Below, piece by piece: positions 51,878 to 56,412 of a stretch of DNA of 64,000 bases. The DNA comes from Changpingibacter yushuensis (GTDB lineage Bacteria; Actinomycetota; Actinomycetes; Actinomycetales; Actinomycetaceae). The notes under the pieces were generated by a model, which was given only the letters and a program-made list of their open reading frames with translations, made no database searches and was not told the origin of the DNA. The first letter of the stretch is position 1. Each line of letters opens with the position of its first letter. The position numbers and the translations under genes are program-made. Where the stretch lies: positions 2,232,001 to 2,296,000 of the forward strand of contig NZ_CP059492.1 in the NCBI RefSeq assembly GCF_014041995.1. Reading direction: 5' to 3'.

Positions 51878-53236
51878 AATTGGGTTTGATCCCACCCAGC
51901 TGTCCTTACCCACGCGGGTTCCCCAGCTTTCGTTCCAGGCTCCCACGTTTTGGCCGTTACCAATACTGATAGCTACGTGACCCGGCCAGTACAGGATGTC
52001 TCCCGGCTGAACGTTGGCGTAAGAGACCCTTGTGCCAACCGATAGGACCGATGTGGTGTAGCCACCAATGCTCACACCAAACTGCTTGTAGACATAGCGT
52101 ACAAAGCCAATGCAGTCCCACCCGGAGGGCGTGGTCCCCGCCCACACGTACGGCACTCCAACGTAGCCCATCGCAAAGTTCACAATGGCCTTGCCGGTTG
52201 CTGAACCCGAACTCGTGCCACCAGAAGGTTGTGTGGTGGTGGTAGCCGTTGGAGTCGGAGCAGCCGTTGCCTTGGGAGTGGTAGCGGCTGGACTAGGCGT
52301 TGTGGCTGCAGGTTTTGGAGTTGTGGCTGCAGGTTTTGGAGTTGTAGCTGATGAACTCGGCGCAGGAGCTTTTGTTGTTGTGGTTGTCGAGGGTTGCGTT
52401 GCCGCAGGAGTGCTAGGCGAGTTTGGCGTATCCCGGGTCGCTTCTTTCTCAGCTGCTTGAACAATCTTTTCTTGCTCAACTTTGGCTTCAGCCTTGGCGG
52501 AAGCTTCCTTCTGCTCCTGCAACTGAGTCTCAATGGCCTCAGTGGTCCCCTTTTGAACAGCGAGCTGTGCGATGAGGTCTGACCGTTGGCTTGCGATACC
52601 GGCAGCCTGAGAATCCACATCGCTCTTTGCTGAGGTCACAGCATCTTCGGCTGACTGGGCCGCATCTGCAGCTTTCTGCTGTGCGGCGGTCTTCTTCTCT
52701 GCCTCTGCTTGCATTGTATCGGCCACAGATTGTAGGGCTTCATACTGCTGCACTGCCTTGTTGGCATCCTCACCAACAAGTCCATAAGCGCGCGCCCGGT
52801 TGTTTGCATCTTGGAGAGAATCAGCGCCCAAGAGATATGCCGCCCCAGAGATTGAACCAGCGCCGTCTCGGTACATCGCGGTGGAGATGCGCCCCAGTTC
52901 GTCCTTAGCTGCATCGGCTTTGGCGGCGGCTTGTTCGGCTGCTTCGTGCGCCGCAGCGGCGTCGCCAATCGCATCGGTGAGTGAACGCTGGGCTGCGATC
53001 GACGCGGCCTGTGCCTGAGCAACCTTGGTGCCGAGTTCATTGCTCTGCGCTGCAAGCTGAGCCAAGCTGACTTCGAGACCTGCAATCGATTGGCTTGTTT
53101 GGGATTGCGCGGTCTTTGCCTCGTTGAGTTGGTCCTCGCTGGCATCGTCAGCGAAGGCCGGAGTCGCGAAAACGCCAGCGGTCAGTGCTGAAACTGCAAG
53201 GGCTGCCACCCAACGCCGAATACTCTGATGTGCCAC
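51857..53236 (-). CDS. Secreted NlpC/P60 peptidoglycan hydrolase with coiled coil
   Basis: Cell-wall endopeptidase, 459 residues. Signal peptide RRWVAALAVSALTAGVFATPAFA with cleavage before DD. Residues about 30-250 are an Ala/Gln/Lys-rich coiled coil. A Thr/Pro/Ala linker with repeats of the form TTPKPAA follows at about 280-345. The C-terminal NlpC/P60 domain has the catalytic Cys in SGWDCIGFVRYVYKQFGV and His in PGHVAISIGNGQ. GTG at 53236 is chosen as it starts directly before the signal peptide with GGAGAG upstream. Confidence 0.9.
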   Translation of the reverse strand: MAHQSIRRWVAALAVSALTAGVFATPAFADDASEDQLNEAKTAQSQTSQSIAGLEVSLAQLAAQSNELGTKVAQAQAASIAAQRSLTDAIGDAAAAHEAAEQAAAKADAAKDELGRISTAMYRDGAGSISGAAYLLGADSLQDANNRARAYGLVGEDANKAVQQYEALQSVADTMQAEAEKKTAAQQKAADAAQSAEDAVTSAKSDVDSQAAGIASQRSDLIAQLAVQKGTTEAIETQLQEQKEASAKAEAKVEQEKIVQAAEKEATRDTPNSPSTPAATQPSTTTTTKAPAPSSSATTPKPAATTPKPAATTPSPAATTPKATAAPTPTATTTTQPSGGTSSGSATGKAIVNFAMGYVGVPYVWAGTTPSGWDCIGFVRYVYKQFGVSIGGYTTSVLSVGTRVSYANVQPGDILYWPGHVAISIGNGQNVGAWNESWGTRVGKDSWVGSNPIVIRVFR

Positions 53237-53350
53237 TATCTCTCCGTCTGCTACAAACCTGGCAATGGCGGCTTGGTGAAGCCTCCCCATGTACAACGTG
53301 CAATTACGAACTTATAACAAATGGACACAAATTGGAACACCGTTCACAAC

Positions 53351-53367
53351 TGTTATCACGATTAACA
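53351..53367. promoter_or_regulatory. Inverted repeat upstream of the NlpC/P60 gene
   Basis: TGTTATCACGATTAACA has five-base inverted ends (TGTTA, TAACA) and lies in an AT-rich stretch about 115 bases before the NlpC/P60 start. Other TGTGA- and TTAAC-like words are nearby. A TATAAG box on the minus strand lies between it and the gene. Candidate operator only. Confidence 0.35.
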
Positions 53368-53534
53368 CCCATCACAAAGTTAACAATCGCCTCATATGGC
53401 GCATTGTCATCGCGTTACAATCCGAGCATTTTCTCACCATCCCAACAGATACGCGCACCAGTTCCCTGACTGCGCACATAGCTCGTAACAATGCCACTGA
53501 CCGATGCCGTCATTCACCCGCGTTCACGTGAGTA

Positions 53535-53592
53535 CTCGAGACTCCCGTCCTTGAGGCTCCCGCCCTCGAAGCCCCATCCTCGAGGCCCTTAC
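53535..53592. repeat. Degenerate 15/14-bp tandem repeat
   Basis: Four units of CTCGAGACTCCCGTC type at 53535, 53550, 53565 and 53579 (15, 15, 14 and 14 bases). It lies in the 590-base gap between the divergent NlpC/P60 and metY genes. Confidence 0.65.
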
Positions 53593-53599
53593 AGCCGAA

Positions 53600-53616
53600 G
53601 TCTCGACTTGTGAGAC
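53600..53616. promoter_or_regulatory. GTCTC/GAGAC inverted repeat upstream of the metY promoter
   Basis: GTCTC and GAGAC flank a seven-base spacer, about 15 bases before the candidate -35 box. It vaguely resembles the sulfur-regulator McbR-type TAGAC/GTCTA site but with different arms. Candidate operator. Confidence 0.35.
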
Positions 53617-53630
53617 AAAACGATCGGGAC

Positions 53631-53661
53631 TTGACTCATCACCAAGTTCGGAAGCTAAGCT
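53631..53661 (+). promoter_or_regulatory. Candidate metYX promoter
   Basis: TTGACT (53631-53636) and TAAGCT (53656-53661) are separated by 19 bases, slightly long. Transcription would begin near 53668, at the ATG of a tiny ORF and directly before the structured leader. Confidence 0.5.
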
Positions 53662-53667
53662 CTAGCC

Positions 53668-53691
53668 ATGTTCTTGCGAATGCCCAACTAG
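53668..53691 (+). CDS. Possible leaderless leader peptide MFLRMPN
   Basis: ATG-TTC-TTG-CGA-ATG-CCC-AAC-TAG begins six bases after TAAGCT. If translated it makes a seven-residue peptide with two Met codons ahead of methionine genes. It covers the 5' strand of the leader's closing stem, so ribosomes on it would change leader folding. Very short; translation is unproven. Confidence 0.35.
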   Translation: MFLRMPN

Positions 53692-53821
53692 CGCACCCCG
53701 TCCGCCCGGACGTGAGTCGTGCGCTTCCAGCCCTATGAACCACAAGAATTGTGCGCGGGCTGGTTGGGACGCTAAATGAGCATAGGCGTGTCCGCCGCCC
53801 GCTCCCCCATGTAAGAGGAGC
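53671..53821 (+). ncRNA. Structured metY leader, candidate riboswitch or attenuator
   Basis: Complementary segments fold into a three-way junction: P1 CCCAAC (53683-53688) with GTTGGG (53763-53768); P2 GCGCAC (53691) with GTGCGC (53719), topped by CGTCCG/CGGACG (53699-53712); P3 CCAGCCC (53727) with GGGCTGG (53757), topped by CACAA/TTGTG (53741-53753). TTCTTG (53671) with CAAGAA (53743) is an alternative pairing. Downstream, GCTCC (53801) can mask the ribosome binding site in GGAGC (53817), and GCGGGC (53755) can pair with GCCCGC (53797) instead. No known SAM, TPP or T-box consensus was recognised. Pairings are seen; switching is inference. Confidence 0.5.
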
Positions 53822-53826
53822 AAAGA

Positions 53827-55131
53827 ATGACTACCAACACCTGGGGTTTCGATACCCTTCAGATCCATGCAGGCCACACCCCAGATTCCGATTTCGGGGC
53901 ACGTGCACTGCCGATTTACCAAACAACGTCCTACGTCTTTAAGGATGCGGAGCAAGCCGCCGGCCGATTCGCACTGACGGACGCCGGCCCGATCTACACC
54001 CGGCTCACCAATCCCACCTCGGGCGCAATCGAGGATCGCATTGCCGCCCTTGAGGGTGGCGCAGCGGGCCTCCTGCTCGCCTCAGGCGAAGCCGCCGAGT
54101 TCTACACCCTAGTCAACCTCGCCCAAGCAGGCCACAATATTGTCGCCTCGCCGTCGCTATATGGCGGCACGTACAACCTATTGAAGACAACTCTCAAGCA
54201 GTTCGGCATCGAAACCCGCTTTGTGGAAGATCCCGACGATCCCGAGAACTGGCGTGCTCTTGTAGATGAGAACACCCGCGCCCTGTACGGCGAATCCATT
54301 CCCAACCCAAAGGGCGACATCCTTGACCTCGAGGCCCTAGCCGACATCGCGCACGCCAACGGCATTCCGCTGGTCGTAGATAACACCGTAGGCACCCCAT
54401 ACACGGTTCGCCCACTCGAATGGGGAGCAGACATCGTGGTGGAATCGGCCACGAAGTTCCTAGGCGGTCACGGAACCTCAATTGCGGGCGTCGTCGTGGA
54501 AAAGGGCGATTTCAACTGGGACAACGGGAAGTTCCCCCTGCTCTCCGAACCGGACGAAAGCTACAACGGACTCGCATTCTCGCGCATCGGACCTGGCGCG
54601 TTCGTTACCCGCATCCGCGCCACGTTGCTGCGCGATACGGGCGCCGTTATCTCGCCATTCAACGCGTTCCTCGTAGGCTTGGGAGTAGAGACGCTTTCGC
54701 TGCGGATGGAGCGGCATCTCACCAACGCCAAGGCCGTAGCGGAGTTCCTCGACAAGCACCCCGGCGTAGCTCACGTCCAATACTCGGGTCTGGTTTCCTC
54801 GCCGTACTACGAACTGGCACAGAAGTACACGCCGAAGGGAGCAGGCTCCGTGTTCACCTTCAACCTTGACGGTGGGCGCGACGCCGGCATCGCCTTCATT
54901 GATGCTCTCCAGCTGTTCTCCAACCTCGCGAACATCGGCGATGCGAAGTCGTTGGCTATTCACCCGGCTTCGACCACCCATTCTCAGATGGACGACGACG
55001 AACTCGCAGCCAGCGGTATTGACGCCGGCACGATCCGTTTGTCGGTTGGGATCGAAGACATCAAGGATATCGTCGCCGATCTCGAGCGCGGCCTCGCAGC
55101 GGCAGCCAACGTCACGCGGGCAGCGGCCTGA
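53827..55131 (+). CDS. metY: O-acetylhomoserine sulfhydrylase
   Basis: PLP enzyme making homocysteine from O-acetylhomoserine and sulfide, 434 residues. The Cys/Met-metabolism PLP motif has the lysine in VVESATKFLGGHGTSIAGVV. YQTTSYVFKDAEQAAGRFAL, the TRLTNPTSGAIEDRIAALEG segment and the C-terminal HPASTTHSQMDDDELAASGI match the MetY group. AGAGGAG lies seven bases upstream of the ATG. metX follows after three bases. Confidence 0.96.
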   Translation: MTTNTWGFDTLQIHAGHTPDSDFGARALPIYQTTSYVFKDAEQAAGRFALTDAGPIYTRLTNPTSGAIEDRIAALEGGAAGLLLASGEAAEFYTLVNLAQAGHNIVASPSLYGGTYNLLKTTLKQFGIETRFVEDPDDPENWRALVDENTRALYGESIPNPKGDILDLEALADIAHANGIPLVVDNTVGTPYTVRPLEWGADIVVESATKFLGGHGTSIAGVVVEKGDFNWDNGKFPLLSEPDESYNGLAFSRIGPGAFVTRIRATLLRDTGAVISPFNAFLVGLGVETLSLRMERHLTNAKAVAEFLDKHPGVAHVQYSGLVSSPYYELAQKYTPKGAGSVFTFNLDGGRDAGIAFIDALQLFSNLANIGDAKSLAIHPASTTHSQMDDDELAASGIDAGTIRLSVGIEDIKDIVADLERGLAAAANVTRAAA

Positions 55132-55134
55132 GTC

Positions 55135-56412
55135 ATGACTGATTGTGAGATCCCCAAGTTTCTCGTAGGGCACGCTCCTCTGGACCGTGTGACTGACGCA
55201 GAGCCGATCGGCGACTTTGACACCGGGTACCGCCCAGCGCCCACGCCGCATCTGCCCGCCTCCGGCGCATGGTTCGAAGGCGACGATCCCGGTGAGCGTC
55301 AGTTCCTTGGCCTCGGCGGAATCGAGCTCGAGCTGGGCGGGCGCCTACCTGACGTCCGCATGGCCTATGAGACTTGGGGAACTCTCAATTCAGACGCCTC
55401 GAATGCCATCCTGCTCTGCCACGCGCTAACCGGTGACTCCCATGCGGCGAGCAGCTCCAACCAAGGCGGCTGGTGGGCGGATATCGTGGGGCCCGGAAAG
55501 GCTCTGGACACCACCACACACTTCGTCGTGTGTCCGAATGTTCTGGGCGGGTGTCAGGGCACAACCGGACCTTCCTCCACTGCGCCGGACGGCAGGCCGT
55601 GGGGATCGCGCTTCCCTGAGGTGACGATGCGCGACATGGTTAATGCAGAGGCCAAGCTGGCTGATCTTCTGGGCATCCAGAAATGGGCACTTATCGCCGG
55701 CGCATCGTTCGGTGGGAACCTCGTCATGGAGTGGGCAGCATCCTACCCTGAGCGAACGGGCGCGATCGCCGTCCTGGTCTCCGGCCCCGCGAGCACGGCA
55801 GAACAGATTGCATACGCACACTTCCAGAAGGAAGCGATTCTCCACGATCCCAAGTGGCGCGGCGGCGACTATTACGACGCCCGAGATGATCAAGGACCCA
55901 CCGAAGGTCTAGGCCTTGCCCGGAAGATTGCCCACATGAGTTATCGGTGTGCACCCGAACTGGACACCCGATTCGCCCGCACTCCGCAGGATGGTGAGGA
56001 TCCCCTTCACGGCGGTCGCTACGCGGTGGAAAGCTACCTCGACTACCACGCCTACAAGCTCGCAGCCCGCTTTGATGCCAACTCGTATCTGGTCATCACC
56101 CAGGCCTTCATGACCCATGACATTGGCCGCGGCCGCGGCGGGGTTGAGAGCGTTCTGCCCACGCTCACCATGCCGGCCCTCGTTGCCGAAGTAGATTCGG
56201 ACAGACTCTTCTATCCGGCTTCAATGCGCGAACTCGCCGATGCCCTGCCAGGTTGTAAAGGCATCGCGACTGTCCATTCCCGTCATGGCCACGACGGCTT
56301 CCTCATTGAGAATGACCAAGTGACCCACATCCTCACCCATTTCCTCCGCGGTCTAGGAGGCGCCGCGGCGCACCTACCCGAAGACTTCACCCGGTCTGTT
56401 TCCCACCCGTAA
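55135..56412 (+). CDS. metX: Homoserine O-acetyltransferase
   Basis: Alpha/beta-hydrolase-fold acyltransferase producing O-acetylhomoserine for MetY, 425 residues. The nucleophile Ser is in IAGASFGGNLVMEWA, the early NAILLCHALTGDSHAAS and NVLGGCQGTTGPSS are family-typical, and the catalytic His is in HSRHGHDGFLIEND. The first 45 residues are an N-terminal extension. Co-transcribed with metY, giving the direct sulfhydrylation route to methionine. Confidence 0.95.
   Translation: MTDCEIPKFLVGHAPLDRVTDAEPIGDFDTGYRPAPTPHLPASGAWFEGDDPGERQFLGLGGIELELGGRLPDVRMAYETWGTLNSDASNAILLCHALTGDSHAASSSNQGGWWADIVGPGKALDTTTHFVVCPNVLGGCQGTTGPSSTAPDGRPWGSRFPEVTMRDMVNAEAKLADLLGIQKWALIAGASFGGNLVMEWAASYPERTGAIAVLVSGPASTAEQIAYAHFQKEAILHDPKWRGGDYYDARDDQGPTEGLGLARKIAHMSYRCAPELDTRFARTPQDGEDPLHGGRYAVESYLDYHAYKLAARFDANSYLVITQAFMTHDIGRGRGGVESVLPTLTMPALVAEVDSDRLFYPASMRELADALPGCKGIATVHSRHGHDGFLIENDQVTHILTHFLRGLGGAAAHLPEDFTRSVSHP

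Follow-up and report, generated by a model that had tools for sequence, protein, structure and literature searches.

Classical ribosome-mediated attenuators, such as those of trp and his, work by competition between the pairings 1:2, 2:3 and 3:4 of their leader RNAs. For methionine genes, control by leader peptides has hardly been described. In a literature search in which subscription papers were mostly out of reach, the sole methionine leader peptide found was metL of Streptomyces lividans, which precedes a transporter operon, and no leader peptide of metY was found. As far as the accessible part of the report goes, metL is a leaderless, methionine-dependent leader peptide before metNIQ (PMC8079986). 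For Actinobacteria, the accessible part of a second study presents structures for the tryptophan, cysteine and leucine pathways together with ileS T-boxes, and none for other amino-acid pathways (PMC1262725). The cysteine genes of Mycobacterium smegmatis are subject to attenuation at the level of translation, according to the accessible part of a paper that points to Canestrari 2020 (PMC13236596).

Here we analyse the leader of metY-metX in a stretch of 64,000 nucleotides from Changpingibacter yushuensis (the window). It contains a short upstream ORF (uORF) with an Arg-Met dicodon, and similar ORFs (Arg-Met leaders) precede metY in relatives. Like this leader, metL is actinobacterial; in the accessible text it is reported as leaderless, its methionine dependence is its authors' assignment, and it ends in CRRMCAF (complete peptides are written up to the stop codon throughout). 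In contrast to the seven-residue ORF of the window before metY-metX, metL has 29 residues and belongs to a transporter operon, and its authors found no typical terminator (PMC8079986). The leader peptides of mycobacterial cys operons, as given in the accessible part of PMC1262725, likewise are short uORFs before sulfur amino-acid genes, but they contain runs of Cys codons, whereas the Arg-Met leaders have Arg-Met, often a single internal AUG, and a constant CGA. Varibaculum-type leaders resemble trp and his in the competition of 1:2, 2:3 and 3:4. Unlike trp and his, Arg-Met leaders use Met and have a promoter spacing suggestive of leaderless translation; the last helix of the window's leader is predicted to mask the Shine-Dalgarno (SD) sequence, and terminator scans found no intrinsic terminator with a U-run in this leader. 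We regard the metY leader as a genuine regulatory element whose best interpretation is attenuation by a leader peptide in response to methionine.

Results

The features of the locus are the following:

53631-53636, + strand: -35-like TTGACT, 19 nt upstream of the -10-like element (sequence reading)
53656-53661, + strand: -10-like TAAGCT, 6 nt 5' of the uORF start codon
53668-53691, + strand: short ORF MFLRMPN, probable leaderless leader peptide
53677-53682, + strand: dicodon CGA-AUG, at which the ribosome is proposed to stall (P site, CGA; A site, AUG); CGA is constant across leaders
53683-53688, + strand: CCCAAC, 5' arm of P1 (strand 1), pairs with GTTGGG at 53763-53768
53691-53724, + strand: P2 hairpin, begins at the final base of the uORF stop codon (predicted fold and swap test)
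53727-53763, + strand: P3 hairpin (predicted fold and swap test)
53755-53772, + strand: strand 2, GCGGGCTGGTTGGGACGC, made up of the 3' arms of P3 and P1; can pair with strand 3 instead
53786-53805, + strand: strand 3, GCGTGTCCGCCGCCCGCTCC, partner of strand 2 or, via GCTCC, of the metY ribosome site (swap test)
53816-53821, + strand: strand 4, AGGAGC, metY Shine-Dalgarno sequence (sequence reading; 3:4 swap test)
53827-55131, + strand: metY, O-acetylhomoserine sulfhydrylase family (TIGR01326, 627 bits, cut-off 495)
55135-56412, + strand: metX, homoserine O-acetyltransferase (NF001209, 424 bits, cut-off 331)

A preliminary description of this region had placed a riboswitch-like leader from 53668 onwards, and this base is the first base of the uORF, which had been overlooked. 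Its codons ATG TTC TTG CGA ATG CCC AAC TAG encode the seven residues MFLRMPN. Since the ATG follows TAAGCT by 6 nt, the uORF is probably leaderless, and judged from this promoter spacing transcription probably begins on the A of the leader ATG or close to it. TTGAC occurs 18-19 nt 5' of the -10 element in the leaders of several relatives; a sigma-70 scan with 16-18 nt spacing reported no promoter at the window's leader. The 5' arm of P1 sits within the last two sense codons of the uORF.

The six complementary pairs and the three-way junction described before are present where they had been placed, and the junction is the structure of minimum free energy (ViennaRNA). P2 is formed by GCGCAC (53691-53696) and GTGCGC (53719-53724) with CGTCCG/CGGACG above, P3 by CCAGCCC (53727-53733) and GGGCTGG (53757-53763) with CACAA/TTGTG above. 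Further downstream, GCTCC (53801-53805) is complementary to GGAGC (53817-53821), and GCGGGC (53755-53760) to GCCCGC (53797-53802). Folding energy was set aside as proof of a leader structure, being only mildly unusual for 93 nt (z -2.21, 6 of 200 shuffles as good) and less so for 166 nt (z -1.14, 28 of 200). A search of 53000-54500 against Rfam 15 up to E 10 returned two matches, both outside the leader and far under the gathering score; the leader itself had none and so fits no known Rfam class.

Relatives of MetY were found by protein search in 174 of 213 genomes of the family (E 1e-100 or better) and in 176 of 198 genomes of the order (E 1e-130 or better), and 80 named GTDB loci were added. 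For some of the genomes carrying MetY we read the region upstream of the gene, with the metY start chosen by script, and deduplication on the last 150 bases left 168 distinct upstream regions. This set was fetched by MetY protein without the CGAATG motif, whereas a set of 171 includes loci fetched by the CGAATG pattern. A strict pattern (TAnnnT, 5-8 nt, ATG or GTG, any of the six Arg codons followed by ATG, stop) was present in 79 of the 168 upstream regions: 58/70 from the family, 9/26 from the order and 12/72 from GTDB contigs, relatives sharing ancestry so that these counts are non-independent events. The Arg codon was CGA in all 79. TAnnnT and start codon are separated by 7 nt in 48 and by 6 nt in 31 of these leaders, the gap between ATG and stop amounts to two codons in 75, and the stop codons are TGA (54), TAG (22) and TAA (3).

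When the frame was left free, 80 loci had a promoter-spaced ATG at most 33 nt before CGAATG, and all 80 were in frame, at distances of 6, 9, 12, 15, 18 and 24. The third codon after the ATG was a stop in 72 of them and in none in the other two frames. CGTATG, CGCATG and CGGATG did not occur at the promoter-spaced position in any of the 168 upstream regions. Within metY of ten relatives, 6 of 186 Arg codons are CGA. In the set of 171, pattern-fetched loci included, 88 upstream regions matched, compared to 7 of 8550 shuffles. Frame, varying length and three types of stop codon thus point to a short ORF that is read as such upstream of a biosynthetic gene; an internal AUG, coding for the amino acid that the operon serves to make, is present in the window's leader as in the 79 strict ones. 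The suggestion of a methionine-related signal, made before the uORF was noticed, agrees well with this codon in front of methionine genes.

By a looser definition, 65 of the 70 family upstream regions have an Arg-Met uORF (absent from L109, L111, L118, L137 and L139). Named carriers are Flaviflexus, Actinotignum, an Arcanobacterium MAG, Georgenia, Demequina, Cellulomonas, Actinotalea, Isoptericola and Varibaculum, as well as Promicromonospora with a peptide ending in RMCCH. A DNA search of 59 genomes returned relatives of the leader amid many chance matches; eight of these leaders, the window's own included, end in R-M-P/S-N. A pattern search of the 213 family genomes gave 45 matches, some being coding sequence without a stop, and the form ending in RMCR had one match each in 4 of 15 genomes searched, at coordinates fitting metY.

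Conservation of the pairings, which is better evidence than folding energy, was assessed by a swap test, which compares the pairing of arms from the same leader with that of swapped arms in 5000 permutations over 14 related leaders, near-copies (L038, L041, L042, L051) and divergent members of the clade (such as L031, L048, L049 and L061) being left out. No permutation was as good for P2 or for P3 (0/5000 each), whereas P1 was not significant (481/5000, n=14). The mutually exclusive pairings were supported on both sides: 2:3 (GCGGGC with GCCCGC) reached 3/5000 and 3:4 (GCTCC with the SD) 26/5000, with 13 leaders each. The proposal of a conserved regulatory RNA upstream of metY-metX, with alternative downstream structures, is borne out in related leaders for P2, P3, 2:3 and 3:4, and masking of the metY ribosome site is a plausible output. 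In the copy at L067 (see below) GCGAGC:GCTCGC replaces GCGGGC:GCCCGC, a compensatory change on both sides of 2:3.

Equilibrium folding supports a switch only partly. If the uORF was blocked, as by a ribosome stalled at AUG, the value for the 2:3 core of the window rose from 0.02 to 0.36; among 13 leaders it rose by more than 0.1 in four and fell by more than 0.1 in three. Accessibility of the SD is nearly flat at equilibrium and is therefore not counted as support: its mean over 88 leaders is 0.26 free and 0.32 stalled, with an increase above 0.1 in 19 and a decrease in 4, and the window's own values are 0.22 and 0.23. A helix beginning at the stop codon is better than shuffles (at most 5/100) in 34 of 75 leaders; the value for the window is 55/100.

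Other genera build different RNA structures around the constant CGA-AUG, with intrinsic terminators in some and a hairpin on the metY ribosome site in the clade of the window. Varibaculum-type leaders have a stop-codon hairpin (CUGAC:GUCAG), an antiterminator (e.g. UGCACG:CGUGCAG) and a terminator (e.g. GCCGUGCA..UGCACGGC with a U-run) in competition. A simple terminator scan overlooked these terminators owing to its loop limit. In a scan of 44 chosen leaders, 8 reached the energy threshold of -16 kcal/mol or better, as did 3 of 200 shuffles. Compact stems with a U-run (-16 to -21 kcal/mol) were found in L125, L128, L129, L131, L133 and L237, while L110 and L138 reached the threshold with larger, less convincing folds. 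The terminator leaders represent four genera (g12, g19, g27, g34) and the named Varibaculum, L133 and L237 being nearly identical.

We folded these RNAs in full and cut before the 3' arm of the terminator; L135 was added by hand to both sets; the cut set also received L121 and L123, neither of which had yielded a terminator. With a stalled ribosome the antiterminator had a probability of 0.80-1.00 in all eight cut RNAs, and with a ribosome at the stop codon it stayed at 0.06 or below in seven of eight (L135, 0.76). The free cut RNAs preferred the stop-codon hairpin in three cases and the antiterminator in five. When the full terminator was present, stalling favoured the antiterminator in L131 only, out of six. 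Since full-length folds rarely favour the antiterminator, the timing of steps during transcription would have to be decisive, as it is in classical attenuators.

SAM-IV (RF00634) occupies the same place upstream of metY in other lineages. It was found above the gathering score just upstream of the gene in 11 of 13 metY loci without an Arg-Met uORF (not in L242 and L201), the 13 being a non-random choice made after viewing leaders by eye. The carriers are loci of Mycobacteriaceae, Knoellia, Terrabacter, Rothia, Nocardia, Blastococcus and Nanopelagicales. In contrast, the Arg-Met leaders scanned gave no match to RF00634 or any other Rfam model at gathering scores (16 loci and seven further loci). 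By a text proxy, the 168 upstream regions divide into 91 with an Arg-Met uORF only (loose definition), 40 with SAM-IV only, 34 with neither and 3 with both. Of these three, L192 looks like chance, and L210 and L226 contain Cys-containing ORFs with CGA-ATG; these two may be intermediates.

Short ORFs with Cys codons follow SAM-IV upstream of metY in L186 (MRASLRPLTRCCCR), L181 (MCMCP), L199 (MCCCR...), L210 (MRCCCRMKRG) and L226 (MSCCRRMLLR). Judged from their order on the DNA, these five are possible tandems of a riboswitch and a leader peptide.

Copies of the leader also precede other methionine genes. Arcanobacterium-like genomes have one before a separate metX in L047 (family search) and in L063 (by looking at the sequence), and in L062, likewise Arcanobacterium-like, a copy whose uORF lacks a clear -10 precedes metF and then metE; the family matches of these two genes (E 1e-63 and 1e-91) are under the curated cut-offs, and metE is cut by the end of the locus. 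In L067 (G211, genus g7 like L009) the copy lies before a MetE-like gene named from sequence only. At 27 metF loci, one being the window's own and the others from relatives, no promoter-linked Arg-Met uORF was found; at the metF locus L264 there is an ORF MCGSIRARMCS without a -10. A plasmid search gave no match, and among 11 matches of CGAATGN6TAG (the TAG form) in the genome of the window only that of metY is leader-like by eye.

Among five metN loci, an Arg-Met uORF occurs in L316 only. This locus of Streptomyces sp. TP-A0874 encodes the metL-like peptide MTATSSAISATGATTTPGACRMCRMCDR, in which the last Arg-Met is CGA-ATG and the first CGC-ATG.

Discussion

The metY leader probably functions as a ribosome-mediated attenuator that senses charged Met-tRNA, and we hold this with good confidence. 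A ribosome would translate MFLRMPN on the leader and, when Met-tRNA is scarce, would stall, its P site on CGA and its A site empty over AUG. By the usual toeprint geometry, its leading edge would then stand at the end of the stop codon; therefore P1 would be blocked and P2 would still be able to form. The freed strand 2, GCGGGCTGGTTGGGACGC, would pair around GCCCGC of strand 3 (the GCCCGCTCC segment), and this 2:3 pairing would break the GCTCC:GGAGC hairpin and open the metY ribosome site (ON). With plentiful methionine the ribosome would terminate and leave, P1-P2-P3 would form (1:2), and GCTCC would mask the site (3:4, OFF). In Varibaculum-type leaders the same kind of uORF would act ahead of an antiterminator and an intrinsic terminator.

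Against an attenuator speaks that many leaders have one elongator AUG only, as do the in-frame UGA in the uORF of L009 and the loss of the Met codon in L157 and L159 (see below). In a his-leader assay decoding of CGA was slower than that of CGU and CGC, as given in the accessible part of that report (PMC4046918). We infer that a slow CGA sensitises the AUG that follows it; the constant, poorly decoded CGA would then make a single AUG sensitive enough as a sensor.

An alternative is an arrest peptide. In TnaC the ribosome is blocked at the stop codon with tryptophan, and a nascent peptide ending in RM-x-x could together with a small molecule block the ribosome of the metY leader in a similar manner. 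The constant R-M, separated from the stop by two codons in 75 of the 79 leaders, would fit, but the two final residues are highly variable (C/P/S/F/R/H, then R/N/S/T/I/K/Y/H/C), the N-terminus is of variable length, and a rule on the peptide leaves the sole use of CGA unexplained. We consider such an arrest unlikely.

It is quite unlikely, too, that the signal read by the uORF is cysteine, or the two sulfur amino acids together, instead of methionine alone. This idea draws on a Cys codon next to Met in 44 of the 75 two-codon leaders, on the Cys codons beside CGA-ATG in the ORFs that follow SAM-IV in L210 and L226, and on the Cys-run leader peptides known from mycobacteria (PMC1262725, in its accessible part). 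However, the peptide of the window has no Cys, in many related leaders Met is followed by P, S, F, L, R or H, and Arg-Met, which the search required and all 79 accordingly share, occurred with CGA only.

The preliminary description had favoured a ligand-binding aptamer, i.e. a riboswitch formed by the P1-P2-P3 junction and responding to SAM, methionine or homocysteine. The junction is stable, its pairings are mutually exclusive, and SAM-IV stands at the same place before many other metY genes. Yet neither the window's leader nor the Arg-Met leaders scanned match an Rfam model, and no loop or junction base beyond the uORF and the pairing arms looked constant when 24 leaders, some near-identical, were inspected by eye. 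Between species, P2 and P3 differ in length, in their loops and in sequence; P3 may be a short hairpin or contain a long insertion. Other genera combine the uORF with different structures. The constant part is the reading frame, and an aptamer is very improbable. That CGAATG is a protein-binding site in DNA or RNA near the transcription start, with the ORF incidental, would account for six constant bases but hardly for 80 of 80 loci in frame at six different distances with a stop as third codon in that frame only (72 against 0), and we give it practically no weight.

For the attenuator, the predicted trigger is thus most likely a ribosome on the uORF and not a metabolite bound to the RNA. In a broader model, which seems possible rather than probable, the leader would be a single-codon attenuator: a constant slow CGA in the P site makes decoding of AUG hypersensitive to Met-tRNA, the fixed distance sets the edge of the stalled ribosome at the stop codon, and lineages rebuild the switch as SD masking or as a terminator, the leader taking the place of SAM-IV at metY in several actinobacterial families. 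If this holds, one and the same gene is controlled by a SAM riboswitch in some of the related lineages and by a ribosome-based methionine sensor in others, and the constant CGA offers a natural and well-sampled test of how one slow codon sets the sensitivity of an attenuator. The locus also advises caution, as a good-looking RNA junction upstream of a metabolic gene may frame a tiny ORF.

Some individual leaders are worth recording. In L009 and L078 (G009) an in-frame UGA right before ATG-CGA-ATG breaks the leader ORF, and the remaining leader seems intact. Upstream of metY, L231 and L244, which gave no Rfam match, share GTGGC[C/G]AGCCAGATGTGT ahead of the ORFs MCRGADRRMPSAA and MCMPCDAFVRMPGCP, both with CGA-ATG. 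L157 and L159, likewise upstream of metY, encode MDRRAPR, in which GCG takes the place of the Met codon and both CGA and its distance to the stop are kept.
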